DNA from: Saccoglossus kowalevskii
Lineage: Eukaryota > Hemichordata > Enteropneusta > Harrimaniidae
Direction of reading: 5' to 3'
NCBI RefSeq assembly: GCF_000003605.2
Contig: NW_003152750.1
Coordinates: 162,367 to 188,029, forward strand
DNA length: 25,663 nt
The notes under the pieces are model-generated. The model saw nothing but the letters and a program-made list of their open reading frames with translations, made no database searches and had not been told where the DNA came from. This document shows positions 9,201-24,009 of this stretch, piece after piece. Positions within the stretch are counted from its first letter, which is position 1. Every line of letters starts with the position of its first letter. The position numbers and the translations under genes are program-made.

Positions 9201-12200
9201 TAATTTTAATTGAATAGTGACCTCATGTTTTTTCCCTCGAAATTCCCGAGTCCTTGTCGTTGACCTGACAAAACCAACATGTAAACAACATGTTTTGCAG
9301 ACGGTATGCTATCCATACGGCACTGGGTTCCCGATGGCGACACAATTCAATTGTTATGTTTACATTTATTTGAACCTCAATCCTCATTGTGTTTTTTTTT
9401 TTTTACCACTAGGAATGTTGTGCAGTTTATGCTCAAAGCACAACATGCTTGCAAAGAGAGGGTCTTCTTTATGGAACAAAGTCCCGTGCACGGTACGGTC
9501 TATGACAAGTTTAACTACAGTAAAGCAGCCAATGTTTGGAGCGCAGCAAAGTCAAGGAGGATTAGTTTAGACTAACTTTTATGGAACAGTTCACATTAAA
9601 TGACGATCTTGTCAAATTATGGTATACTATGTAAAGTATTATGTAATTTAAATAAAGCCTCTCATACATTTTAATACTCTCTTGTATGTTTGTTTTTGTG
9701 AAAGTGAATCCTGAAAAATATGCAAATTAGTATGCAAATTAGTCCGCCATGCTTGCCTCTGAGCCTGGGACTGTTCTCAGTCAAACGTACTGTTAAAAGC
9801 ATAAATTATTTCTGGTTTTTTAATTTCACTATTTTGATATTTCATCATATTTAAAAAATCACTGATTTTCCAGTGAAACAATTAGTTCTATTGCATTTGT
9901 AATTGATATGAATATTATTTACACTTATCAGCAAAAAATAGCTAATAAAAAAACTCGATGAAAAATTATTAAGTTTACAATTGAATTTACAGTAGCAATT
10001 CAAAATATTTATCAACTCAAAAGCAATCAAAGCATTTCAGAGTTTTTAATGAGGACACAATACTGGGAATGTAGGTACCCTCTCAATGAATAACGTCACA
10101 ATGATGTATTCAACCTGGTATGCTACTCAGCCCATATAAAGAAAATACTATATGGTAATTGTATAACTGTCGGCTAATTTAACTTGTTTTAAAGTCAGTA
10201 TTTTCCACACCCTTTCATAATTAAGCACATTCAGCAATCAACAAAAGAAGGTAAATTAAAATCATGCGAAAAAAGAATAAATATTTTCGTACCTTGTTTC
10301 TTTAACATTTTATAAGCATCCCCAATTTTCGCTTCATGTGGTAACCCTGTACTCCAACAATATAACAACTCAATCACTTTTGTTTTCACTTTCTCCGATG
10401 TTTTTTCACCCAGATACTGTAATCATGAATAAAAATTGTAAAGAAGGCAATACAATAATGGGACCCAAACGGATATTTATTGAGAACATAATTTAAATAT
10501 TCAACACACAAAAATGCCAACATTTAAACATATGATGCAACAGATTACATCATGTATGTGAAAAAAAAGTCATATCATACTCGTATTAAGATCATTGTAA
10601 TATAAAGTATGAACATACCAGGGATTTTATTATACAAGGGAACAGGGGCGCAGCACCCTCATGCCATGGAAATGCGCCCCTTTACTCTGGGGAGCAGATC
10701 CTCTGGCAACCATAAAATTCTGATTGACCAGAGATCACATGTGGCCACAGTCTTCAACTGTGACCTGTCTGATAGTAATTTTGGCCCCACGAAAGTCATA
10801 GAATGCTCCATTTTAACTTAGAATTATCAAAAACTCCACACCCTGATAGGGAGAACCCTATCTCCCCCACCTGGTGGCGCTGCTGATTTGCAGTGCTCCC
10901 TCTTGCAGTTTTTTTTCTACTTGGCGCCCATGCTTGACTGAATGCCCAGCCCCCATTTTTTGGACATTCCTCTTTTTGGGGTACGTTCGGCTGCAAAAAA
11001 CCCATGCCCCAATACCAATAATAGAATTTTATATAAATTATAAGAAAATTAATGACGAAGTGACTAATTTTGCTAATTTATTCTCCCCAATGATCATGCA
11101 TGTGCACATGGTGAAATAAAATTGTCATTTACATAGTACTTGTTCTTGGGTGTGTGTGCTGGGATGAGCACTCATCCCTCCAGAACGTGTAATTTTGGGA
11201 TCACCCTGAGCGCTAAGTCGGATGGGTATGGTATATGTACTATGATGTGCATGGTAAGTGACAAATAAGGCTGTTGAAAAGAGTGCACCAAAGCATGCAG
11301 CGATCCAGTTCCGGTTGACTCACAATCATTATATCTATAAAGTCAATGGTTGAAGCCACAAACATTGGACATATATGAATACAACATATTTACCTTAGGA
11401 GAAACCAACTTGATCATTTCATTCAGAAATCTAAATTTACCAATTTCTTGGTGAAAACGTCTACCACAGTTTTTAACACAGGATTCCAAAACGGTTAATG
11501 ACTGAAGAGCCTCCATTTCTTGCGGGGATTGCATCTTATGAGCAATTAACTTAGTTGCTATCTGGGGTCTGAAAAAGTGAATGAAAATGTTACTTTCTAA
11601 AAGCAATTATCAGAAAAGTTCAAACAAGACCTATGCAGTCTTCAGAAATAAATATGATAAATGGTATTTGTCATGATGAATAACCATGTATGTAAGGGGT
11701 CTGAAAACTAACTCTGCAACACGATAGTGCGACTCGCTGAATGTTAATTATTGCACTCTGTGGCAGGGGTGCAGTGTCACTGATTGATTTGATTGGAAGA
11801 CCACTTGTCACAGCGTAATCACCTGGGGACGCATTATGTGTGCATTGTTTCATGTTGAAATAAATTCTTAACATTTTGGAAACCTCTCTGAATTTTGAGT
11901 CGATTATTTTAATTTAATTTCGAATGAGTTTAATTTCATGATTTTGAGCTGTCTGAGCTTTTCGCGGTGTTTAGATTTCCCGGACTGTCGAAATATGAAA
12001 CAAATGGTCACACCACATGAAGCAGTCAGTCAATGTCTTGTTGATTTCAGTCACATGCAGCCTCCAGCAGAACAGGTATTTCTGTATGTCTGACACTTAA
12101 TCACTGTATCCTTTATTTTAAATACTAAATGTAAATGACGTGTTTTCAGACAGTCTAGAAAGTAATACAAAAAGAACAACCCCGGGAGAATAACTAACAA

Positions 12201-15200
12201 CCGATCCGTGCTTTATCAATAACAATTTTCATCTGGTGACAAAAATACTTATTTATTCGCGGCAATAAAAATAATTATTTTTTGTAATGAACAAATTAAT
12301 AGGATACAAATAGATTTTTTTTTTTCAGGTGAGCGAATTAATAAGATCCATTTTGATCGGTTCAATTTGAACTTGTTTTCGCCAATTTAATAGTGATCAA
12401 GACGTTCTTTCGTGTTTTGGAGTGGTTTAGGGGCCGTGGCTAACAAAAAATGTCGCAGGGAATCAGAGTGGACAGCAGGGAACTCAACCAAAAGTCACGC
12501 ACCACTCGAAATGTTAGTTTCTAGCTTTTCAATTGGTCGCGAGGAAGACAAGATGCCAATCACAGAGATGCACTGTATTTTGTGCTACATTGAAGGAGCA
12601 AAATGCACGCTGTTTTGGAATGAATATGTAAACAAACAATCAATTTGTGGCTACAAATTGTGGCCTTCTGATTGTACCGCTTTCTTTTATTAAAATGGTA
12701 CTTTTTACACACACACATATTTTGGTACGGTGTATCCCTTTTTTGGAGGATGAAAATGGCCGTTTTGTTTGTGTTGTAAAAAGTTACAAATAGATTAATT
12801 TGTGCTTGACAAGTCGCCGGCAGTGAAGCCTTCAAACCAATCAGCTTCATCGTCGTTGTCATGGAGCAGGTCAGCAAACGTTTCAGCTATTTCGTCTTCA
12901 GCCCCGTTAATTGCATTAGTAATGCCGCACAACTTGAACGACTTTGAGATCATCGATGGTCGCTCGACTACTAGTAACTTCTTCCAAGCATTTTCAACAC
13001 AGTCCACGATAGTCTGTTTATGGACCGTTAACAAGCGTGATTCTGAATATGAGCACGAAATGAAATGAATCAAGCACTATCATTGAATATCGTCTCTCTG
13101 TGTATGGTACCCATATCTCGTCTACCCAGCGTAGCATGAGTGCTTCATTCATCCATCCCTTTTTTTGGACAGCAATGACGAAACTGGGTGGGGATTTCAA
13201 TTCACGTTTTCCCTTGAATATAATCATGGGGGAAGTACATCTCACCATTTTACATTCAGTCAGTACGATGGTGAGGTGACGCTTTTCATTGCCCATGGTT
13301 CAAACTTTCATTTTTTTCGCCCCTCGAGTGTCCACTGTTCTGTTCGGGACTAAATCAAAATAAACGGGGGGTTTCATCCATAATTCCTATATAATCAGAC
13401 CCTATTCACTGAGTTTAATTCGCACAGATGTCAAAAACTTGTTGAGTTTTTCTTCAAAGTCAGCGGGCAATCGCCATTGCAGTTTTTGCACAAAGTGTGA
13501 GATTGTTCTGTTTCATGAAGTGCTGACACCAACCGCGAGAAGCTTTAAAACGTTGGAGTTATCAGGGACATCGCATGATAACTAATTTCGTCAATCTGCA
13601 AGTCCCATTCTCGAATTAACCAGGCAAGCATTTGTTCGTTCAGTTCTCCCCCATACGTTATTTTACGCCCACTGCTATAACATCATCCATCTTTTGTGAA
13701 CTGTTTGTGGTCAAAATCATATTTTTTCCACCCTCTGATGGTTGATGATGCAATCTTGTACCTTCTAGAAGCAGTATTGATACCGATGATTTTTGCCTCC
13801 TCAAAAATTGCCCTGCGTTTCTTTACATTGTAAGAAATATACACGCCTCAACTTTTTGGAGTTGATTGGGCGATCGATTGATGAGGCGGGGAGACGAGTC
13901 GAAATGTGGTGATAATGACATGGACGAGTCAAGTGGTGCTGGGCGCGGTGATCCGATGTTCTCTTAATGGGTTGTGGTGGGTTGCGATACTGCAACATCA
14001 CTTGTGTCGATTCGAGGATTCTTAGGTCTGCCAACGGGGCGTTTTTTCCCGAACGATAGTGGGTGATGTACAAAACATAGACAACGGAATAGCTGGTATA
14101 TCAGCAGAAGGTTTAGAAAAAAAAGAATCAATACGGCGAGACATATTGAAAGTACTATTAGCTTGTTACAAGACTAAAAGCAAGTAAATTCAGATTGGAA
14201 ATATGTCTTATTTATGCCATCTCGTAGCCCCAAATTCTTCACACATTTTCAGACACATATCTGCGATAAACTTGGTGCAACTCATGCTGTTTAAAAAAAC
14301 AACAATGAATTTGCAATTGAGCTCATATCGTGTACAAAGGCGAAACAGTTTCACTGACTGGAGAGGACAGGAAATTGTCAGTATACTGTGTGACCCATCC
14401 TATTTAAAAACAAATCTGGCATGTGCCCATCTATTTACAACATTGAATTCGCAAATGAGCTCATAATATCTACAATGTCTGGAAGGAGGCAGGAAGTAGT
14501 CAGTGCTACATGTAACGTCTGACACATTAATTTTGAGACCAAAGACGCATCGTTTTGTCGCGAACATTAATATTGTTATTAATTTTGAAGTTATTATTGT
14601 TATATTCAATGTTATGGTAATACTGCCAATATCCAAGTGAAATGCATAAATTATGTTAATTAAGGTCAATCAACGTCCGCACGTGATCGGTATTGACCAA
14701 TCAGTGTTTGTTTATTTTCTGCTCACGTGCAGTTCAAATTCTGTTATCTTCTGTGTTCCTGTTCCAGACAACATTCGTTTTTGAATAAATAGTATACAGG
14801 TTGTGATTGTAATATTCATGGGAAAACCTAACTGAGTCTGTATTTCTGTGACGCTATTCACAATTTAGTGCCGAGACCAGGATATTTCCGAACACTACCT
14901 GACGATGCCAACCTTAGCCTCTACCCACGCAAAGGCATAGAAACAAAGTGTCTTGCTCGAAAGGATCATCAAACCGATCAAAGACCTCATCCGCGAATTC
15001 GACTCCCTACCAAACTTGTATTTTTCCAATCAAAGCTCTGCTAGCTGCAATGATGGTTACTAAATAACCATGCTTCGACGATCGCCGGTGATCACAACAA
15101 CTCAAGGTAATTGGTAACGTGAAAACGATAAACGCATACTGAAAACAAAAAAGGTATTTGGCGATATTGATAGGATACAAATTATAGTTTTGTTTTTAGA

Positions 15201-18200
15201 ACGTGGCGAATTAATAGGACACAAATAATAATTAGCCCCCGAAAATAAAATAGGCGGACGAATTAATAGAGACTGCGAATTAATACAGTTTTTAATATAA
15301 TAAGGTAATTTGCATTTTTTTTTTATTTAATTGGTAACGAAAGTATAATCTAAAATAAGTTTCAAATAAAAATAAACACAACTGCATTGCTTAGTAGCAA
15401 ATGATCACGGTAGCCCAACAGGTCATGCTGTGTTTCACAATTGTTGATTATTATTCATTAGTGATCATAATAATGTACAAAGAAAAAATTTGTTGTATTG
15501 TTATGAAAAGCAAGTAAAATTCAACTCTGGTCGCATGTAAACGCTTAAACCATGTGACATTTTTTCGTGACGACTTCCATGAGTTTGCCGATCACTGAAT
15601 AGTGCGGCATGTCGCCGATGTATGATAGTGTTTACATCTTGTTTATCATAGTTCTATAAGGCATATGGTAAACCGTTACACTGAAAGAAGTTATATGGAC
15701 ATCGACCAACCATTGGGATTCACGCTTTTTGACAAACCAACCAATGGGAATCATGCTCTTTGCTGAGTGACACTGCAACCCTTTCGCAGAGTGAAATAAT
15801 CAACATTTGGCGAGTCGCACAATCGCATCGCAGAGTTAGTTTTTTCCTTTTACATACATACCTTGAATAGCACATAGTTTGTAGAATCAGTCTCTGTCGC
15901 ATGAATTTGAATAATTTTGCGCATATGGCAAACTATGTACATGCTCAAACACCTAGCTCTAGTACTAATAAAAAAAACTAGAAAACCAAAAAAAGAACAT
16001 CACAAGCTCACTATAAAACCAAAAAAATCAAATTAACAGTCGAAGGTGATACAGACATAATCCTGAAACTAATCAATGTTGTACATTACCCTAAAGTACC
16101 CAGGTACCAAATTTAATCAAAATCCGCTAAAATTTTTTGAGATTTCTCATACATTGACTGAAATGAGAAAACGAACATGCAAATTAGCTACTTAATATGC
16201 AAGCACATAGCCCCCAAAACAAATCCTGTTTGCACGTTATCCTATGAACTAAATTTTATAAAAATCCACTCAAAAGTTTTTGAGATTTTGCTCACATAGA
16301 CTGAAAATAGACAATTAATATGCAAATAATATGCCAGCTACTTATACGCAGACATGGCCCAAAAAAAAAAATCATGTGCATTACCATAAGGTACCTATGT
16401 ATCAATTTCGATTAAAATCCATCTTTGCTAAGATAACAAATAACACATGTGCATAAACTGAGGCATGTCTATGTTAAAGTACTAAGTCATGTTTTAATGA
16501 TCCAGCATTCAATAAATTTGTGCATGATTTATGCATGTACTTCCAGTACAGATGTGCTTCTAGAACAAATAAAGTTTTTGAAAAATGTGCAATACCTCAT
16601 AATGCCTGATACAGACTTGATTTCGCAACCCACAATATATGTGTACACAAAGTGGCATAATTCTTCTTACTTACCCTTCTAATTCTACATTCACTTGATC
16701 ACAGAATCCCATTATATATTCCCAGTCATCTTCTCGGTTAAATGGATTTGTGGCTTTATCTAAAAATGAAATAGTGACAAAAGATGCATGGCAAAGTCCC
16801 CGTTAGTTATCAAATTTAAAATATGTGTATATAATTTTGTTTATAGTAATTTAGTTGGAAAATAAGCATGTCAGAGATATGGATCCAAAAGCTGATGCTT
16901 GATTATGATTTTTTAACATTAAAATGACTGAGATTCAGTCATATTGTATCTGATTGTCAAACAGTACCTGCCCATATTGAGAGGTATTGCTCTGGAACAG
17001 CATTAATTAAAACAAACGGCCGCTATTCGACCATTTTGAATTAGATTGTCAAACCAATACATCTGTATATCGATGACATGCAAAATTTGAACGTAATCAG
17101 TTGAAGCATGTCAGAGATATGGCACTAGAACAGCATTTACTAAAACAAAATAGCTGCTAGTCAGCCATTTTGAATCCGATCTGAAAATCCGATCCAAAAT
17201 GACTAATGTATATACCATTTTTCAACAAAATCCATTTGTAAATATCCAAGATCTGGTTCAAGAATGCCAGAAGAGCTTGATTTCGATGATTTTCAGCACA
17301 AAATGACGGGCATTTGGCCATCATGAATCAGATTGTGGAACAAATTGAGGTGCATATGTATAATATTATATATGATGTATGTGTGAAGTTTAAATTTAAT
17401 CAGTTCAGGCATGTCTAGGATATAGGTCCGGGCGCACACATGAACTCACGGACACAGGCAAAATCCACAAGTCCCTGTGTGTCACTGCTGTTTTGCGCAT
17501 GCATAACTGTAGAAAATTTAATCAAAATGGCGTCGCACACTGTTCTTTAGAGGTGTGGTAAGCCTGTGTTGACAGCATGAAAATAGTATCAAATTCGTAT
17601 TAGTTTTAAAAAAAGCGATGCATTTGCAAAAGCATATTTCAAATCCATATATTTGTTTACAATCTGCCTAAATTCATATTTATGTTGTATGCCATGTCAG
17701 AGGTCATCTTTGCTATCACGCACATTACACACTGACAACCACACTTTTTGTAGTTCAGTACACAAAGTGTATATGGCAAAGCTCCATAAAAATATATTTC
17801 TGTTCTATTTTACTGACTGGTTTCAATCACGTTTTGTTTGTATTGACTCTTTAAAGAGGAAGCTGTCAACCCAAGGGACTGTACCCTACAATCACCATTG
17901 TCTATTTCAGTATTTATAATATAGCCCTGTGTCGAGGGTTAGCAATAGCATATTATAGTCAGACGAACCCCCCCCCCCCGCCCCCAACCGTATGAACGCC
18001 CGACCGTATAATTGTAACCCCCGACCATTCACAGCGGTATATGTAATTAGATCATATTTAGATTCGCGTTGTTATTCTAATTTATCAAGTAAAGTTTCTG
18101 TTAATATACCCATCGTAAGTAAAAACCGATTGAATTTCGAACCCGGAAAACTCCGGAAGCTCATGAATTCTCTCACGCCGGTGTATATTGTAGTTGTGTG

Positions 18201-18399
18201 TTCCCCGAGTCGATCGTCCACGGCCAGACACTTTTTTTTTTTTGCTGCCGTGGGTGAATAATAATGTGAACATCATATGAACGTGAATATTATATAAATC
18301 TAATGTGTATTACTTAAAAATTTTGAGGAATATGTTTTATAGAATGGAAATGAAACACTCACTCAGCCACGATTCGAGGGATTCGCCATCGTCCGCCAT
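56..18399 (-). CDS. GGA: GGA-family ADP-ribosylation-factor-binding clathrin adaptor, 5' ten coding exons (3' end outside window)
   Basis: Minus-strand gene with ten coding exons: 18363-18399, 16675-16759, 11394-11568, 10293-10416, 8208-8308, 5716-5934, 4874-4955, 4208-4306, 2610-2780 and 56-279. All have GT-AG borders, and phases agree at every junction (1317 nt, 439 residues). Residues about 1-140 are a VHS domain containing KFRFLNEMIKLVSPKYLG, the region that in known GGAs binds acidic dileucine sorting signals. Residues about 160-300 are a GAT domain. Its AANRLIKNMVKED helix matches the ARF-GTP contact, including the conserved Asn, and DILQANDSL lies in the ubiquitin-binding C-GAT bundle. 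A hinge follows with LLLEDELSALG, typical of GGAs. Known GGAs recruit clathrin at the trans-Golgi network to sort cargo such as mannose-6-phosphate receptors. The C-terminal GAE ear is absent because the window ends. TOM1/TOM1L proteins share VHS-GAT but fit the hinge and exon sequences less well. Which vertebrate GGA it corresponds to cannot be decided; invertebrates usually have one. Confidence 0.96.
1350..2215 (+). repeat. dispersed modular repeat, copy A (interrupted)
   Basis: Contains the recurring modules AAAATGGCC(A/G)C...GTCGGC, TTGAATGTGATCGGTG and ACATGTCTG, and ends with a GACAGAAAGACAAACA-type tract. The same modules occur in the same order at 6235-7130, 16850-17480 and 22060-22555. 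A minisatellite interrupts this copy. No coding capacity; class unknown. Confidence 0.6.
1798..1946 (+). repeat. degenerate minisatellite, about 21-23 bp units
   Basis: Six or so imperfect units built around CTCGCATATGGCATTTT...CTA, for example starting near 1835, 1857, 1880, 1903 and 1924. Low internal identity suggests an old array. It sits inside dispersed-repeat copy A in GGA intron 9. Confidence 0.65.
2610..2780 (-). CDS. GGA: GGA coding exon 9 (hinge)
   Basis: 171 nt, entered in phase 1 after exon 8 (codon A|GA) and left in phase 1. Acceptor is CTGTTACAG|GA, donor TTAG|GTATCA. It is a low-complexity Ser/Thr/Ala-rich hinge ending in SSALLLEDELSALG, the conserved LL-x-DEL-x-x-LG element of GGA hinges. 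The plus strand across it also stays open (2582-2797), which is a shadow. Confidence 0.9.
3234..3246 (+). repeat. G13 homopolymer
   Basis: Thirteen consecutive G on the plus strand (C on the GGA transcript) in an otherwise AT-rich intron. Length may be unreliable in assembly. Confidence 0.9.
3874..3947 (+). repeat. perfect 37-bp tandem duplication
   Basis: Two adjacent identical 37-bp copies (3874-3910 and 3911-3947), each beginning CATCATACTTACAAATAC. The absence of mismatches implies a recent event or a segregating allele. Located in GGA intron 8. Confidence 0.95.
4208..4306 (-). CDS. GGA: GGA coding exon 8 (end of GAT)
   Basis: 99 nt, acceptor CATGTAG|AT, donor GGAA|GTATGT. Encodes NDILQANDSLVKVMESFKLI and the following V-E-G-V. 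ILQANDxL is the conserved last helix of the GAT domain, contacted by ubiquitin and Rabaptin-5 in GGA1/GGA3. Confidence 0.95.
4307..4873 (-). other. GGA intron 7
   Basis: Short intron whose main content is MITE copy 1. Nothing else recognised. Confidence 0.75.
4475..4607. mobile_element. MITE copy 1 (TTAA-flanked inverted-repeat element)
   Basis: 133-bp block with TTAA at both edges. The left end reads TTAAAGCGTGGTGGTCGTCG and the reverse complement of the right end reads TTAAAGGGTTGCAGTCATCG, so the termini are imperfect inverted repeats. The interior (AACAATGTATTTTACA, CCCATATCGAACAGGA) aligns with the reverse complement of copy 3 at 24010-24169. No coding capacity. TTAA is the piggyBac target site, but assignment to that superfamily is tentative. 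In GGA intron 7. Confidence 0.75.
4874..4955 (-). CDS. GGA: GGA coding exon 7 (C-GAT helix)
   Basis: 82 nt, acceptor TGAACAG|GA, donor CTAA|GTAAGT. Encodes ELYEACEKMRPKLFTLASD followed by an acidic ADDKDDGL. It matches the LYQRCERMRPTLFRLASD segment of human GGA1. Confidence 0.95.
4956..5715 (-). other. GGA intron 6
   Basis: AT-rich intron without a recognisable repeat or exon. A 73-codon plus-strand open frame at 5252-5473 has no recognisable protein features. Confidence 0.7.
5716..5934 (-). CDS. GGA: GGA coding exon 6 (GAT domain, ARF-binding hook)
   Basis: 219 nt, exactly 73 codons, phase 0 at both ends. Acceptor is TTTTTCAG|TT, donor AAG|GTAACA. Encodes LLDRLLKSKNQEDLQAANRL and then IKNMVKEDANRMEKVSRRL, the helix-loop-helix that grips ARF-GTP in known GGAs. 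CNNNVKLLNEML begins the C-GAT helix bundle. Confidence 0.97.
6235..7130 (+). repeat. dispersed modular repeat, copy B (interrupted)
   Basis: Left part (6235-6345) has GTTCAGAATGGCAGAAATGC, TTGACTTTGATG and AAAATGGCTGTCATTCTGGC. Right part (6950-7130) has TTGGCCATCTTGAATCAGAT, ATGTGTGAAGTTTTAATGTG, a GATCGGCCCAGGTATGTCTG stretch, and an ending with repeated ACACACACGGAGGTCAATAA. The parts match 16850-17480 and 22060-22555 but are separated by about 600 bp of unrelated DNA. Confidence 0.65.
6398..6447 (+). repeat. 26-bp tandem duplication
   Basis: TCTGCATTGCGTTAATAATA followed by GTT occurs at 6398 and again at 6424, a 26-bp period, identical over about 23 bp. In GGA intron 5 beside dispersed repeat copy B. 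Confidence 0.9.
8208..8308 (-). CDS. GGA: GGA coding exon 5 (VHS-GAT linker)
   Basis: 101 nt, acceptor AATTGCAG|GA, donor AAG|GTGAGA. Encodes GIVTTDP, a proline-rich linker (EPPPPPRPKD) and the acidic FEDEDKAK entering the GAT domain. The proline run between VHS and GAT is typical of GGAs. Confidence 0.94.
8372..8456 (+). repeat. subterminal array of CCGCCATGCTT with an inverted leading copy
   Basis: CCGCCATGCTT-type 11-mers start at 8385, 8406 (one mismatch), 8426 and 8446 (last base differs), a 20-21 bp period. The inverted copy AAGCATGGCGG at 8372-8382 forms a near-perfect palindrome with the first, 2-nt loop. Another copy is at 9744-9754. Clustered subterminal 11-mers suggest transposase-binding sites. 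Confidence 0.75.
8627..9570 (+). CDS. two-exon zinc-finger protein resembling the N-terminus of hAT-type transposase-derived proteins
   Basis: Exon 1 is 8627-8807 (donor TCAG|GTATGA); exon 2 is 9413-9570 (acceptor TTTACCACTAG|GA after a T tract). Phase is consistent and gives 112 residues. The N-terminus is very basic (KRKRVETQKRRE), followed by FDESWKKIFPWL. The splice then creates SGMLCSLCSKHN and WNKVPC, the layout of the N-terminal zinc finger in ZNF862/C17orf113-like, hAT-derived proteins. The two histidines expected after the SL motif are missing (TSLTTVKQPMFG), and there is no catalytic domain. An AATAAA lies 81 bp past the stop. Start chosen as the first ATG after an in-frame TGA. It is antisense within a GGA intron. 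Either a decayed transposon gene or a small domesticated one; not distinguishable here. Confidence 0.6.
9065..9108 (+). promoter_or_regulatory. ETS (CTTCCGG) plus perfect YY1/TISU element
   Basis: CTTCCGG at 9065-9071 and CAAGATGGCGGC at 9097-9108 lie 25 bp apart. The second matches the TISU consensus SAASATGGCGGC at all 12 positions. The ATG opens only a 17-codon frame, then TGA. The site is inside the intron of the plus-strand zinc-finger gene and could be a cryptic promoter. Confidence 0.45.
9651..9656 (+). terminator. poly(A) signal AATAAA of the plus-strand zinc-finger gene
   Basis: Canonical AATAAA 81 bp beyond the TAG stop at 9568-9570, on the same strand. Position fits a short 3' UTR. 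Confidence 0.6.
10293..10416 (-). CDS. GGA: GGA coding exon 4 (VHS C-terminal helices)
   Basis: 124 nt, acceptor GATTACAG|TA, donor CAAG|GTACGA. Encodes YLGEKTSEKVKTKVIELLY, then W-x-x-GLP and AYKMLKKQG, the conserved end of the VHS domain. Confidence 0.96.
10417..11393 (-). other. GGA intron 3
   Basis: Contains a less AT-rich stretch at about 10610-11010 (runs such as GGCGCAGCACCC and CCCCCACCTGGTGGCG) that looks like an unclassified insertion. Open frames there on both strands show no recognisable domain. Confidence 0.6.
11394..11568 (-). CDS. GGA: GGA coding exon 3 (VHS core)
   Basis: 175 nt, acceptor TTTTTCAG|AC, donor AAG|GTAAAT. Encodes the VHS core: IAHKMQSPQEMEALQSLTVL, the cysteine pair around SCVKNCGRRF, and KFRFLNEMIKLVSPK, the cargo-signal binding helix region of GGAs. 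This is the most diagnostic exon for the family. Confidence 0.97.
11706..11781 (+). repeat. 76-bp inverted repeat, left arm
   Basis: Begins AACTAACTCTGC and ends GCAGTGTCACT. It aligns without gaps to the reverse complement of 15766-15841, 64 of 76 positions identical. Weaker similarity continues outward (ATGTATGTAA on both sides), so the true end lies slightly further out. Confidence 0.9.
12290..12349 (+). repeat. GAATTAATA motif repeats, left cluster
   Basis: Two motif copies about 42 bp apart: AAATTAATAGGATACAAATA at 12293 and GCGAATTAATAAGATCC at 12333. The unit matches the right cluster at 15161-15226 in the same orientation, with a T-rich spacer in both. Confidence 0.7.
12795..13880 (-). 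pseudogene. pogo/Tigger-type DDE transposase pseudogene
   Basis: Read on the minus strand in shifting frames, it shows the order of a pogo-superfamily transposase. First is an N-terminal helix-turn-helix-like region (13880-13690, ending STIRGWKKYD), then a second DNA-binding helix (GRKITYGGELNEQMLAW). Next are the first catalytic Asp in GIMDETP, the GNEKRHLTIVLT strand, FKGKR, and VQKKGWMNEALMLRW. The second catalytic Asp is in IVLDSF, and the C-terminal tail has SFKLCGITNAI and WFEGF. Stops and frameshifts occur between about 13300 and 13700. Directly after VLDSF the sequence jumps to the tail, so the segment that carries the third catalytic residue (LQPLDVxVNKPFK in relatives) is deleted. 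Inactive. The start is uncertain; upstream open sequence to 14073 shows no clear homology. Confidence 0.85.
14300..14525 (+). repeat. imperfect tandem repeat, about 138-bp period
   Basis: ACAATGAATTTGCAATTGAG followed by CTCATA near 14302 recurs near 14440 as ACATTGAATTCGCAAATGAG plus CTCATA. Similar downstream parts (GGA-GGAC/GGC-AGGAA-TGTCAGT and GTGTGACCC/GTCTGACAC) follow. Two copies; origin unknown. Confidence 0.6.
14654..15015 (+). mobile_element. probable BEL/Pao-type LTR retrotransposon relic (LTR plus start of gag region)
   Basis: A candidate 209-bp LTR (14654-14862) begins TGT, ends ACA and contains AATAAA (14784). It is followed by TAGTGCCGAGACCAGGAT, which resembles the junction after BEL-family LTRs. 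An ATG at 14905 opens a stretch that breaks at an in-frame stop. A shifted frame (about 14940-15015) continues as a charged helical segment like the start of a BEL gag. No pol is present and no second LTR was found. Assignment is from pattern memory. Confidence 0.4.
15161..15288 (+). repeat. GAATTAATA motif repeats, right cluster
   Basis: Four motif copies: GCGATATTGATAGGATACAA (15161), GCGAATTAATAGGACACAAA (15206), GACGAATTAATAGAGAC (15257) and GCGAATTAATACAG (15275). Such reiterated subterminal motifs are usual near the ends of DNA transposons and may mark the end of the pogo-type element at 12.8-13.9 kb. Confidence 0.7.
15766..15841 (-). repeat. 76-bp inverted repeat, right arm
   Basis: Reverse complement begins AACTAACTCTGC and ends GCAGTGTCACT, pairing with 11706-11781 at 84% identity without gaps. 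Just inside it, at 15704-15761, is a roughly 29-bp imperfect tandem repeat containing CCAAT-like cores. Confidence 0.9.
16081..16440 (+). repeat. 147-bp tandem repeat, about 2.4 copies
   Basis: Copies start near 16081 (GTACATTACCCTAAAG), 16229 (TTTGCACGTTATCCTATG) and 16376 (TGTGCATTACCATAAGG). Each contains a TAAAATCC...TTTTTGAGATTT core, then ATGCAAAT/ATGC modules and an ACATGGCCC-like end. Identity is about 70%, so the repeat is old. Last copy truncated. In GGA intron 2. Confidence 0.75.
16675..16759 (-). CDS. GGA: GGA coding exon 2 (VHS, N-terminal helices)
   Basis: 85 nt, entered in phase 1 and left in phase 2. Acceptor is TTTTTAG|AT, donor GG|GTAAGT. It encodes KATNPFNREDDWEYIMGF and the following FCDQVN segment, closely matching the KATNP...DW...GFC start of GGA VHS domains. 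Confidence 0.95.
16850..17480 (+). repeat. dispersed modular repeat, copy C (longest)
   Basis: The module CATGTCAGAGATATGG...AACAGCATT...GCCATTTTGAATC is reiterated about three times (16867, about 16960-17045, 17107-17180). It is followed by the GGTTCAAGAATGCCAGAAG/TTGATTTCGATGATTTTC module and the terminal AAGTTTAAATTTAATCAGTT / GGACACAGGCAAAATCC module. All modules recur in copies A, B and D in the same order and orientation. No coding capacity. Confidence 0.7.
17968..17985 (+). repeat. C-rich homopolymer tract (C12 G C5)
   Basis: Twelve C, one G, five C on the plus strand in GGA intron 1. The flanking GACCGTATGAACGCCCGACC stretch has short internal repetition. Sequencing length here may be unreliable. 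Confidence 0.8.
18363..18399 (-). CDS. GGA: GGA coding exon 1 (start codon)
   Basis: Encodes MADDGESLESWL plus the first base of the next codon. Donor is A|GTGAGTG. The start is the only in-frame ATG before the VHS helix and has a CAAGATGGCGGA context. An acceptor-like TTTTATTGCAG lies only 8 nt upstream of the ATG, so an upstream non-coding exon is possible. Confidence 0.9.
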
Positions 18400-18403: not shown

Positions 18404-20256
18404 AAAGCTGCAATAAAACAATGACCACTTATCTTTGTAAAAATTATAGTTACTCATCTCTTTAGATAGTCACAAAACCTCACACAGAAAGAATGATCAC
18501 ATTTATTTAGACAAAAACTGTTATTACGCTAATATATCAATGAAGTAACTGTTGTGATCCTTATGTTTTCACTGTTCTTCTTAATAACTAGTAGGAAAAC
18601 CAAACACTAAAGGCGGTCATATTACACGAAGCAAAACCACGTTTACAAACTAGGATTCGACATCGACAAAGCACAACGCCCACCTGTGCCCAGATCATGT
18701 GCTTTTTGGAACACAAATCATGAAAGTTTAAAAATGCATCATTTAATACGCCATCTGCAGAGGCTGATCTTCACTCTTATATAGATAACCATGATTCATA
18801 TATAGCTTCAGTAGCGCCTCATTTCAAATGCAGCTTATGTGTTTGTTGTTTGTGCTGGTGGTTGGGCGAGGATAGACGTGTCCGTGTTTTGCTCAGCCAA
18901 TTATTTGTGTTTACTTTAATAATCGTAATACATGACCAAGAACAGGACTGAATCAGATTGTTCTATTTTTAACATTAAGTCACATGAATTTTTTTCAACA
19001 ATTTTTATCAAAACTTGTAGCCGATTAAGTTGTCAATTAATTAATTTAATATATTCAAAAGCAAGAGTCATGTTTCCAATAATTGATACCATACGGCCAC
19101 ACCTGGGATTTTTCGAGAGAAAAAAATCATCATCAGCACCGCATTGAGCGAATTATCATCCAACAATCCTCCCAAAATACATTTGTAAATGTTACAAACG
19201 GCAAATTCACAGAGCAAGATATCTTCTGAAAGATAACATTAGAGACACCCCTAACTGGTCGTCATATTTAATAAAATTGCAGACACAACACAGGAAATTG
19301 CACAAACTTTAAAACAAAAATATTTTGTTTCTTTATATAAAATATTTATAAGTTTTATAAATTTGAAAGAATGGTTGAAAAATTGACTAATTTTGCCTCA
19401 GTTGATGCATACTATTCATACAGAATATCTTTTGCATGCATGGCTGTAAATAAGTCAAGGGTATCATGAGTACGGTAAGTTTTATAAATTTCCATAAAAG
19501 CATCATATCTTCATAAAATGGAGTGTAAACCTAACACACATACATTTCAATTTGTATATTACGTTAATAAAAATCTGATTTGAAGGCATTGGTCATAATG
19601 CAGCACTGTTAAACGTTTTGAAAATAATGTATTTTAAATGTGTTCACTCTTAAATATTGTTTAAAAAGTGCAAATACATCCTCTAAATCAAGGTTTGAAG
19701 ACATCAAACTCTTTGGTGCTTGATAAAAACCTAGAATTTATGCAGCGTTCCACTCGCTCTACATTCCATAAATGCCTAGTTACAATGCTAGTTTTATCAT
19801 TACCCATCCAGACACACTATAGTATGTAATAAGCATCTTATGAAATAATATACTGTATGCTCATTGGTCAGTTTAGATGCTACACAAATTATTACAGATG
19901 TGCTCCTATATTACGGTAAATATTATATTCTGCACACCTTAAATTTTCTATTGAAATTGATATTCTAGGTCTATTTGCTCCTATATTTATTTTTTCCAAA
20001 CTTGTTGCCGGATACACAACTCATATATGATAACATAATATGGATAAATTACTTATTAATGAAAAAATGTTTATTCAGGAATTACAAAAAAAATTGTTTG
20101 GAAAACAAGATTAATCTATGAAAATGTACACGTTCACAGATAAATCTGTTGGTGACTTGAAAAAATCAAAGAGATAAGAAGTAAGCACTAAATGTTTGTC
20201 ATGAATACAGAAAACTGGACTAATGGGAAAAAGTAATATTCAAATGTTACAAATAT
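18404..20256. other. GGA upstream region (left part of the PHF5A-GGA interval)
   Basis: AT-rich intergenic DNA that should contain the GGA promoter. No TATA box or CpG-rich core is obvious; the start-codon TISU/YY1 element is the only promoter-type signal recognised. A plus-strand open frame at 18932-19147 has no recognisable features. Confidence 0.6.
20070..20075 (-). terminator. first canonical poly(A) signal downstream of PHF5A
   Basis: TTTATT on the plus strand (AATAAA on the PHF5A strand). By eye there is no AATAAA or ATTAAA between the PHF5A stop (21065) and this site. If it is the one used, the PHF5A 3' UTR is about 1 kb and contains the octamer array. Confidence 0.35.
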
Positions 20257-20852
20257 AGTAATATGCAAATTAATGTTTCTTATGTAATTACAGTAATAAG
20301 CAAATTAACAGATGTTACTCATCCACGTACAGTAATATGCAAATTACATCAGGCATTACTCATCCAAGTACAGTAAAATGCAAATGAATTCAGATGTTAC
20401 TCCTCCCAGTACAGTAATATGCAAATTCATAAAAATATTTATGTTGTCACCGTAATATGCAAATTGCATCAGACATTACTCATCCAAGTACAGTAATATG
20501 CAAATGAATTCAGCTGTTACTCCTCCCAGTACATTAATATGCAAATTCCTAAAAATATTTGTTATCACCGTAATATGCAAATTACATCAGACATCACTCA
20601 TCCAAGTACAGTAATATGCAAATGAATTCAGCTGTTACTCCTCCCAGTACAGTAATATGCAAATTCCTAAAAATATTTATGTTATTACCGTAATATGCAA
20701 TTTACATCCTATTATAGTAATATGCAAATTATCTAGACGTTACTCATCTAATTACAGTAATATGCAAATTATTTCAGACATTACTTTTCAAAAATACAGT
20801 AATTTGTAAATTGAATACATATATCCATTTACAGTACGGTAATATACAAATA
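20257..20852 (+). repeat. higher-order tandem array with twelve perfect ATGCAAAT octamers
   Basis: Monomers of about 40 bp share the core GTAATATGCAAATT. Three monomers make a higher-order unit of about 119 bp, with unit starts near 20346, 20466, 20584 and a degraded one at 20704 (spacings 120, 118, 120). The second and third units are nearly identical. Twelve perfect ATGCAAAT sites lie between 20263 and about 20770, with further variants (AAGCAAAT, ATGCAATT, ATACAAAT). ATGCAAAT is the canonical POU-homeodomain octamer. Monomer linkers alternate CATCAGACATTACTCATCC, GAATTCAGCTGTTACTCC and CCTAAAAATATTTATG. Located between PHF5A and GGA. Confidence 0.95.
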
Positions 20853-21064
20853 AACTCAACAAGTGTACACTACTGAAGTCATCCTGGGTGTTGTATTTTA
20901 CCAAGTGGGCTTAGTAAAACGATGAATATATTGGAAACGTCACAGCTGGACCAAGTCGTCACGATGTATACAGATGTCACATTGCTGATGCGTGCTTAGT
21001 TCACAGCAATAACAAAACAAGAATATCAGTCCATGGAATAAAAGTGTGAAGTCAGTTATGTATA
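20853..21064 (-). other. PHF5A proximal 3' UTR
   Basis: Sequence directly after the PHF5A stop. No canonical poly(A) signal seen, only an AATATA variant near 20925. Transcription probably continues into the octamer array. Confidence 0.45.
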
Positions 21065-21154
21065 TCATCTTTTTTTAAATCCATACTTCTTTCTTTCGTA
21101 GAACAGATCTGTTTTGGCACTGCCGAGGTTTACTATTTTTGGACAGCCATCTCT
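21065..21154 (-). CDS. PHF5A: PHF5A terminal coding exon
   Basis: 90 nt: [20 protein letters not shown] then RKKYGFKKR and TGA. Joining after EKD restores the conserved EKDRDGCPK. This exon lacks its own ATG, so it is easily missed. Confidence 0.97.
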   Translation of the reverse strand, partial: RDGCPKIVNLGSAKTDLFYERKKYGFKKR

Positions 21155-23374
21155 CTAGAAAAAATAAATAAAATGTTGGAATTTAGTTAAATGGTTTCAT
21201 GTTCAGATTTTTTGAAGCACTTTTCGAGGGATGTATTGTTTATTGAATAATATAGAACCACTGCTTATCCAAATGCAACTGCTGGTCTGTATTAAAAATA
21301 TATAGTGCAACATCAGATTTTTTTTATAACATAAGATATGAATATGTATGTATGATTTATTCCATTTAACAGCATAAAAATCTACAAATATAAACTTGTA
21401 TTATATACAGTTTAAAAATAGCAAGATAAAATATATTTGGTCTCCATGTTGAACATATAGGGTTTATGATTTGTGGTCAAAATACTAGACCCGTATTTTC
21501 ACTGCAAGATATGTTTGCGCTTATAGGATCTTATGGCATTTGTTAATTTGCTTTGTTTTACTACCACACTGATCCTACTCCGCTACAGTGATCAGGGGTT
21601 CCCTTGTTTAAGAAAATCCCTGGTCATTATCCTGACTGCCATTTACATATTTTAAATCAAATTGCTGAAAACAATCTTAAAGCAATAACAGTTTTGTAAG
21701 TCAATAATTTTTACATTGTGTGAATGTGTAGGTTTATTCATCACCATATAATTGATATAATTATGCAAATGAGTATATAAATGAGTATTGTCATCACTAC
21801 AGTGGTTTGAATTTCTGGGGAGAATACTGAGATTTAGCATATGATAATGTACTTCAGACAAAGTATATATTTTTTTGTTTTGTAGATTATGAAAGATTCT
21901 TGAAAACAAGAAGGACTTTATAATTTAGACTTTACTGTGAATGTTCATTTTCATAGTAATTATAGATTTACATGCAATCTGACTATTTTGAGTACCGGTA
22001 CATTTACTTGGTTTCAAATTCACAGAACTTGCATGCATGTGTATATGTGTGATATAACTTGATTCGTCAGAGATATGGCACTGGAACAGCATTCGTTAAA
22101 TGCCACCAGTCGGCCATTTTGTATCTGATTTAAAAAAACAACGATGTGCAAGGTCCCTTAGTGCTGAACACCAAGTTTGAAAGAAATCCATTGCTACACG
22201 TCAGCTATCTGGTTCTGAAATTGCAGAAATGCTGGATTTTGATGAATAAGCATAAAAATGCACACCATTCAGCCATCTAGAATTGAATCGTGAAACGAAT
22301 GCACATGCATATGTTCCTACCCCTAGAATTGAATACAGTTATTTTTTGTTGGTTATTTTTTGTCAAGAAAATAAAATGTTATGAGAATGTATAAATGCCG
22401 ATAGCAAGAGACTGCAATAAACAAGAGATTGTATACAAGTCTATTCCTCCCAAAGATCTATGAAGTTTTAATTTCATTGACTCAGGCATGTCTAAGACAC
22501 AGCTTAAAGCGCAGACACACATAGAGGTCAACCCATAAGTCCTTGTGTTATGACTGCATCAGAAAATAATTAATTCAATAAACTAAAGCCTAGTTTAGAT
22601 CAATGAACATAATAATTGATGATATTCTGCAAAAAAACAACATGAATTCAAAGGGGGGAGGTTGGGATAAAAGAACTTCACAAATGCAGGACAACGAAAT
22701 TTACAGTTATTTTATATCAGTTTTCATTGTCTAGATATTCAACTTTTCATTATGTAGAAGGATAGCACATTGAATTGCCATTTGATAGAGAGATGACCAC
22801 ACTGCCCTGTCATATATTAGTCTAGTCCCAAACATGAACAGGGCTTCAGTGACAAAATGCACTATGTGTATCATCTTGATTCTCCAGCAAAGGATTACAA
22901 GTGAAAAATGTAACAAAGACACTGTAGTGATTAATTGGAAGCATTATATTATTTTCTCAGCCTTTCCCTTTAAAGCGAGAGGGTCGTCACCTGCGTACAC
23001 GCAGGAATTGAGTCCCATGCGACATTAACAACACACGCTAAAAATGCAAAGGCAATGACAATAAAAAAATGACACGCTATGGCCATATGATACATGCGCA
23101 GGTGACGACTCCCCCGCTTTAAATAAACTAAAATACTACATGAAGAAAATAAAATATAGCCATGATGGCATGTAATGACTTACATCTTTTTCTTGTATCG
23201 TACATTCTTTACAATAGTAAGCATCAGACACGCCAGGTCCGCCACAAATAACACATCTACCTTGATAAGAACCATAGTTACACTCGTCGCATATCCGAAC
23301 TAAAGTACACGGACGTACGTATGAATCACATATCACACATTTACCATCGCATTTCTCGCATAATCTACCAATAG
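21065..23374 (-). CDS. PHF5A: PHD finger-like domain protein 5A / SF3b 14b (Rds3), last two coding exons
   Basis: Exon 23184-23374 (acceptor TTCACCAG|CT, donor GAT|GTAAGT) and terminal exon 21065-21154 (acceptor TTTTCTAG|AG) join in phase. They give about 93 of the family's 110 residues, starting at the Ala18 codon and ending GFKKR-stop. PHF5A is a zinc-knuckle subunit of the U2 snRNP SF3b complex that helps recognise the branch-point adenosine. The CxxC series is intact (CEKC, CVIC, CDEC, CVIC, CKEC). Tyr36 in CDSYVRP, at the branch-point/pladienolide pocket, and Lys29 in CDGKC are present. The end reads [18 protein letters not shown], as in other invertebrates. The first coding exon (expected MAKHHPDLIF-like start) was not found up to 25663 and should lie outside the window. 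Confidence 0.97.
22060..22555 (+). repeat. dispersed modular repeat, copy D
   Basis: Shows TCAGAGATATGGCACTGGAA, CCACCAGTCGGCCATTTTG, TGCTGGATTTTGATG, AAGTTTTAATTTCATTGACT, CAGGCATGTCTAAGA and a CACACATAGAGGTCAACC end. Same module order and strand as copies A-C. A short unrelated insertion sits at about 22320-22450. Confidence 0.7.
22970..23122. mobile_element. MITE copy 2 (TTAA-flanked)
   Basis: 153-bp element flanked by TTAA. Termini are strong inverted repeats: AGCGAGAGGGTCGTCACCTG on the left, and AGCGGGGGAGTCGTCACCTG as the reverse complement of the right end. The interior is not clearly related to copies 1 and 3, but the termini share the AGCG-GTCGTC design. In the PHF5A intron. Confidence 0.85.
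23184..23374 (-). CDS. PHF5A: PHF5A internal exon (zinc-knuckle core)
   Basis: 191 nt, entered in phase 1 and left in phase 0. Encodes [20 protein letters not shown] through CTIQEKD, essentially identical to the human protein and holding all the zinc-binding CxxC pairs. The open frame continues past both splice sites for a few codons; those residues are intronic. Confidence 0.98.
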
Positions 23375-24009
23375 CTGGTGAAGAAATAGACAAATTAAAG
23401 TTGGTTAGTGTGACACACAAGAGTTATAGTGTAAATAAGTGATGCCAAAGGCTCTTCCTGATTAAAACTAGACAAAACAGTTACTCTCATAACCAACACT
23501 GATCTTCACAGATTTTAACAACCAATTTAGCAACCAAATAGAAGCAAACTCTCAAATGACAGAGATAGCACACATCGGCTTAAAATATAGAAAAGATTTT
23601 AACATATGAATGTTTTTTACTCGAGAGACATGTAGCCTTTTAATGTAATGAACATAATACCCTTCCACTGAGCTCAAACATTTTTAGAAAATTTGTGCCA
23701 CATTGTGTACCTGTGGTAAAACTCATAGCAAAAGAACACGTAAAACTGATTTTTGTTTTCGATATTAAAAACTAGAATTCAATTACTAGTACAAATCTTA
23801 GCAATTTTCATTTTTCCTATACAGCACTTTCCACTATATGTTGTTATGCAAGTTGCATTGTACATTTTAGTTTTGGGGGAAATTTTTCTTGGTGAAGCTT
23901 GAAATATGATTGTGTCTCAATACACACATTTTACCAAACTTGACACTTGTCTTCTAACATGGTACCACTGATCATTTAAGGTTCATTTTAGAACAATTCA
24001 TACATGTAT

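Follow-up and report, generated by a model that had tools for sequence, protein, structure and literature searches.

A probable locally grown minisatellite between PHF5A and GGA in Saccoglossus kowalevskii, with a conserved block that contains a POU octamer

Introduction

The nearest parallel that we found to the present locus is provided by the satellites of root-knot nematodes, which are reported (PMC3694981) to have little in common apart from a 17-bp CENP-B-like Box 1. Their monomers make up simple as well as higher-order arrays, two of the switches from one monomer type to another fall precisely at the box, and further repeats have nothing but the box in common. The likeness resides in a constant short box amid divergent tandem repeats; the present locus differs in having a POU octamer block in place of a CENP-B-like box and in that its array is ~0.65 kb long, lies beside genes and is made mostly of units of 35-42 bp. 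Minisatellites in general resemble the locus by their ~40-bp unit, homogenised centre, degenerate edges and almost wholly single-copy flanks; they differ from it in that divergence is uneven here, the core being constant and the linkers different. The functional octamers that are known mostly occur singly or in small number. In homotypic site clusters and octamer elements such as the CEH-6 octamer of C. elegans (PMC2841177), as at this locus, the consensus site of a single factor is present in numerous copies close to genes, but the sites described here are head-to-tail, in tandem and in a single orientation. A literature search by titles and abstract openings yielded no report of octamer-boxed satellites among the matches listed.

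Results

The window, that is, the whole stretch of 25,663 nucleotides that was analysed, corresponds to bases 162367-188029 of contig C4256 in a genome of 572 Mb, and its genes indicate a eukaryote source. A first-pass annotation had described twelve perfect octamers in about 510 bp, spaced by about 40 bp and arranged in three-monomer units of about 119 bp, and this description held. We found 12 perfect copies of ATGCAAAT over 507 bp (20263-20769), on the plus strand only; nine of the 11 gaps between them were 36-41 bp long, and the two longer ones (74 and 65 bp) skipped broken copies at 20298 and 20695. Counting both strands, the whole window contained 21 octamers, against a mean of 4.66 and a maximum of 10 in 100 dinucleotide shuffles of the window. 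TRF reported a 120-bp unit repeated 3.2 times (20332-20708, 93% matches) and a 41-bp unit repeated 9.4 times (20289-20665). The array had been placed at 20257..20852 and proved longer than that: a core scan recovered 17 monomer cores spanning 20231 to 20853, and the end at ~20876 is conventional, being the start of the last monomer plus 40 bp. The features of the array are the following.

20231..20876, plus strand: whole tandem array, 17 monomer cores with a period of ~40 bp (core scan, TRF)
20330..20687, plus strand: higher-order part, built of three successive A-B-C units (120, 118 and 120 bp; TRF, repeat family, unit alignment)
Starts 20263, 20337, 20378, 20419, 20457, 20498, plus strand: first six perfect octamers
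Starts 20539, 20575, 20616, 20657, 20722, 20762, plus strand: last six perfect octamers
20238..20245, plus strand: broken octamer ATTCAAAT, located in the monomer farthest 5' (monomer list)
Starts 20298, 20695, 20804, 20844, plus strand: further broken octamers (monomer list)
20332..20344, plus strand: example of the block GTAATATGCAAAT (alignment)

The array consists of head-to-tail units within the ~10-100 bp typical of a minisatellite (17 cores, with periods of 41 and 120 bp), and its centre was homogeneous and its edges degenerate. The octamer core, which had been taken as perfect throughout, was so in the nine higher-order monomers, but 5 of the 17 octamers, all of them outside these nine, carried substitutions. 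On aligning the three A-B-C units, 13 of 120 columns were variable and none of the 24 octamer columns was (hypergeometric P 0.046, or 0.076 counting substitutions only). The octamers of the array showed no helical phasing (vector strength 0.21, n = 12). The nucleosome repeat being about 147-200 bp, a nucleosome-phased satellite, as the annotation had also suggested, is not supported, since periods of 36-41 and 118-120 bp fit no such repeat. Two pairs of inverted repeats with 78-80% complementarity, one having an arm within the array and the other bracketing it from farther out, were considered and not accepted as element ends. The window gave no Rfam match at gathering scores, and a tRNA search of it found none. 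A second, tiny octamer tandem was noticed at 9719-9743, where a 12-bp duplication, TATGCAAATTAG, is repeated 2.1 times.

Comparison of the 17 monomers with their consensus, a small sample in which the edge monomers were recognised via their core, gave 6 differing positions out of 136 in the octamer, 2 out of 85 in the preceding GTAAT and 122 out of 414 in the linkers, with a Fisher value of 0.71 for octamer against GTAAT. Parsimony changes were counted on the nine monomers with alignable linkers, using a tree built from linker columns alone, which avoids selecting monomers by their core. The 13-column block had 2 changes, one in its 8 octamer columns and one in its 5 GTAAT columns, whereas the 27 linker columns had 26 (permutation P 0.001 for the block), and the octamer window had the fewest changes of any circular 8-column window (1, with 2 in its neighbours). 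The octamer columns alone also changed less than the linkers (permutation P 0.016), as had been anticipated, but they were not more constant than the adjoining GTAAT, which had not. The conserved unit is the block GTAATATGCAAAT, wider than the octamer. Extended by TAC to 16 bp (GTAATATGCAAATTAC), this block is a near-palindrome, 14 of its 16 positions being equal to the reverse complement.

A search with the 380-bp higher-order part, in which very common words were skipped, gave 3 matches across the genome, all inside the array itself; the genome search advocated by the annotation for the 119-bp unit hence excluded an ordinary dispersed satellite. The 3' flank (20700-21064) had no genome match beyond its own place and the 5' flank (19700-20330) had none elsewhere in the genome except for the piece 19730-19803, apart from which the flanks are single-copy, as around a local, non-dispersed minisatellite. 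Because the unit is local and the flanks are nearly unique, we infer that the array expanded in place. The exceptional piece at 19730-19803 is an isolated fragment, 77-83% identical, of an ~83-bp satellite whose copies cover at least positions 1842-11039 of C4398; one further place lies on C4308. Pattern scans of viral contigs gave no match. Three matches in bacterial and archaeal genomes corresponded to short repeats of 2-3 copies in metagenome-assembled prokaryotes, differing from the array outside the octamer word, and were set aside.

The location of the array between PHF5A and GGA, as proposed from the first pass, was confirmed by domain matches on the minus strand, namely PHF5 on one side and VHS (E 2.1e-21) and GGA_N-GAT (E 2.4e-6) on the other. 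The relevant features are given below.

23139..23420, minus strand: open frame with the central PHF5A exon (PHF5 domain, Pfam PF03660, E 1.5e-27)
21065..21154, minus strand: last coding part of PHF5A, 29 residues and stop (from the translation; start of the part from codon count)
21065-21067, minus strand: PHF5A stop (read from the translation)
20070..20075, minus strand: AATAAA, the sole minus-strand copy from 20000 to the PHF5A stop
18358..18399, minus strand: probable first coding part of GGA, MADDGESLESWLSE (from the translation; start and end inferred)
18397-18399, minus strand: GGA start codon (read from the translation)

Read in the direction of the two genes, the array thus comes ~0.2 kb after (3' of) the PHF5A stop and 1.8 kb before (5' of) the GGA start. 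Should the AATAAA at 20070 be the signal used by PHF5A, the array would be transcribed antisense, within the PHF5A 3' UTR; AATACA at 20892 or AATATA at 20927, if used, would stop the PHF5A transcript short of it. A DDE_1 transposase fragment, which we take to be of the pogo/Tigger type, was observed at 13021-13296 on the minus strand (Pfam E 3.5e-8), between the GGA exons at ~16.7 and ~11.5 kb.

The word TAATATGCAAAT had 1572 copies in the genome, against 472 and 367 for two dinucleotide-preserving shuffles, and was 3.3-4.3 times commoner than these. The random sample was small: 12 stretches, six from a random contig list and six from hand-picked large contigs, with 79,096 non-N out of 120,000 bases, three stretches being all N and two pure satellite. 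Over 59,096 of its non-N bases, the octamer occurred 9 times, the shuffles 4 and 13 times and the reversed word 6 times, and a separate random count of 6 octamers was unremarkable against a Markov expectation of 7.0. The two wholly satellite stretches, both from randomly chosen contigs, consisted of 61-bp units repeated 164 times (L042) and 35-bp units repeated 285 times (L045), in which periods of 53, 88 and 123 bp are nested.

The 14-mer TAATATGCAAATTA had 585 copies in the genome and the reversed word, which contains CpG, had 3; the order-0 expectation was 49 copies if the full length is taken and 32 if the non-N part, as estimated, is taken. Twenty well separated sites of this 14-mer were chosen by hand from the 100 listed of 585, and 8 of them matched a divergent repeat family of ~140 bp, one (L048) through a single short match, the others being L047, L049, L055, L061, L062, L064 and L065. 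Given these 8 sites out of 20, the family accounts for part, not all, of the excess of TAATATGCAAATTA. It is both tandem and dispersed, frequently has two AATATGC words ~20 bp apart, and is present in the window as well.

About 16050..16450, plus strand: two copies of the ~140-bp family, 143 bp apart, with octamers at 16177 and 16320

A search for two copies of TAATATGCAAAT separated by 14-44 bp gave 32 matches on 15 contigs, including that of the window; among the control pairs, one shuffled word gave a single match, and the reversed pattern and the other shuffled word gave none. At 13 of these 15 contigs we compared a total of 15 arrays, whose periods ranged from 19 to 129 bp, C750 (no TRF array with octamer) and C4512 being left out. 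Among arrays that had been selected by the box, and after dropping pairs having a linker of fewer than 6 bases, 4 of 78 tested linker pairs surpassed 99 of 100 shuffles in similarity; the pair formed by the window and C257 was one of the four, and the linkers of C1650 and C3323 were similar by eye. The same box was found in arrays of otherwise mostly unrelated units. Octamer triples gave 2,551 matches, 537 of them on the forward strand and 2,014 on the reverse strand, and triples of the reversed word gave 29. The 100 listed triple places, on contigs up to C759, made up 24 loci, 17 of which had at least 2 matches, and the linkers at most of the 24 differed, judged by eye only; a rough extrapolation by contig number yielded ~153 octamer array loci in the genome. 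The strand imbalance of the triples suggests at least one very large octamer array beyond the 100 listed places.

The octamer was significantly less changed than the rest of the unit in 3 of the 15 arrays, those of the window (6/112 vs 91/439, P 4e-5), of C3898a (0/128 vs 39/380, P 1e-5) and of C3992 (0/85 vs 29/417, P 0.008). Its protection was not significant in the 12 other arrays, including C2267 (12/260 vs 47/1056) and C3985 (33/312 vs 178/1376), which have the most copies. Pooling all 15 gave 66/1447 for the octamer and 481/5773 for the rest, in arrays found through the octamer, a bias that favours it. Two octamer arrays lie within 1 kb of each other on C3898 (L026 403-885 and 1484-1591, periods 32 and 20 bp) and likewise on C1177 (L019 1536-1635 and 2004-3065, periods 22 and 129 bp), and a 39-bp array with one octamer per unit (G000:C253:639575-639816) has GC-rich, CpG-holding linkers unlike the mostly AT-rich ones of the listed arrays.

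Whether the octamer is preferred in arrays beyond its abundance depended on the normalisation. Per word copy, there were 14 array loci in 1572 for TAATATGCAAAT, excluding the window locus, and 1 in 839 for the shuffled words (Fisher p 0.026), a test that depends on a single control locus; p was 0.016 with 15 loci, 0.042 with 12 loci, and 0.14 with the first control word alone (15/1572 vs 1/472). Normalising by all in-step 8-mer triples in the small random sample, 44-66 octamer array loci were expected against the ~153 extrapolated, and the expectation rose to 143-217 if the two pure-satellite stretches were included. The reversed word had 88 times fewer triple matches than the octamer (matches, not loci), though it was nearly as frequent in the sample. 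The excess of octamer array loci over abundance lies between none and about eightfold, a range that is wide because the genome is very rich in tandem repeats.

Discussion

We consider it probable, at about 0.62, that the locus is a minisatellite that grew in place, its conserved near-palindromic box being at the same time a POU site. The sequence itself shows tandem duplication on two levels, a block that stays constant, linkers that switch and flanks that are nearly unique. In the process that we propose, a ~41-bp unit would have duplicated in tandem, its linkers would then have diverged into three types, A, B and C, and the whole A-B-C triplet would have duplicated in turn, via unequal exchange or replication slippage. 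Meanwhile, the 13-16 bp of near-palindromic GTAATATGCAAAT(TAC) would have stayed nearly fixed, with linker types switching at the block edges. The block may provide a short homology for unit exchange, in which case a change of linker type at its edges is what one would expect. A neutral array should diverge evenly, so that the constant core needs a cause; the POU octamer inside the block may be there by chance, or may contribute to the block's maintenance. The less changed octamers of C3898a and C3992 speak against a neutral minisatellite in that they are equally explicable by POU binding. Judging from the recurrence of the octamer in many other tandem arrays of the genome, the array is one of a class. 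On the tests that were run it behaves as a minisatellite, and an enhancer label would need functional support.

A broader proposal, which we regard as rather unlikely, would make of the ~150 octamer-anchored minisatellites with unrelated linkers a family of POU platforms or sponges, in which the POU block, by analogy with a CENP-B box, might seed or homogenise the arrays or be bound in them. Unlikely too, on a similar analogy, is that the box, bound by a POU or another protein, would promote tandem expansion or mark repeat chromatin. The per-copy comparison (p 0.026) and the ratio of octamer to reversed triples, 2,551 matches against 29 for words present 9 and 6 times in the sample, would fit such a role. 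However, the all-8-mer normalisation, with 44-217 loci expected against 153, shows no clear excess, the Fisher value relies on a single control locus and becomes 0.042 or 0.14 under other counts, and the reversed control word contains CpG.

A homotypic enhancer cluster, in which POU factors would bind the octamers and regulate GGA or PHF5A while selection keeps the octamer and the linkers drift, is likewise improbable. It would account for the octamer window being the least changed and for a site count above chance, be it 12 in 507 bp or 21 in the window, but GTAAT is as constant as the octamer, 5 of the 17 octamers are broken, and their spacing is without helical phasing. In addition, octamer arrays are common genome-wide, 12 out of 15 showing no significant octamer protection, and we know of no POU connection of PHF5A or GGA. 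In favour of binding, the genome has POU genes, with at least 2 exon matches over the cut-off, and the block resembles octamer sites from published binding assays: a consensus EMSA probe contains GAATATGCAAATTACC (PMC1800861), TATGCAAAT is an OCT4 site (PMC12370185), and with the variant ATTTGAAT, which is the reverse complement of the broken octamer at 20238, weak expression was still seen in C. elegans (PMC2841177). Since POU genes are present and the block fits Oct-bound sites, POU factors would likely bind the block in vitro; that the array regulates GGA or PHF5A would be a guess. Finally, the array could be an expanded fragment of the dispersed ~140-bp family carrying TAATATGCAAATTA, as 8 of 20 sampled dispersed sites and two copies within the window might suggest, but this is very improbable, the core-masked 600 bp around the octamer at 20337 giving no family match at E 1e-3 and the array unit matching nothing else in the genome.

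Coming back to the locally grown minisatellite, the locus would be an ordinary one if it is only that. Should a genuine preference for the octamer in arrays hold across the genome, a developmental transcription-factor site would be tied to the birth and upkeep of satellites. As it stands, the octamer appears more a repeat-building box than an established gene switch.
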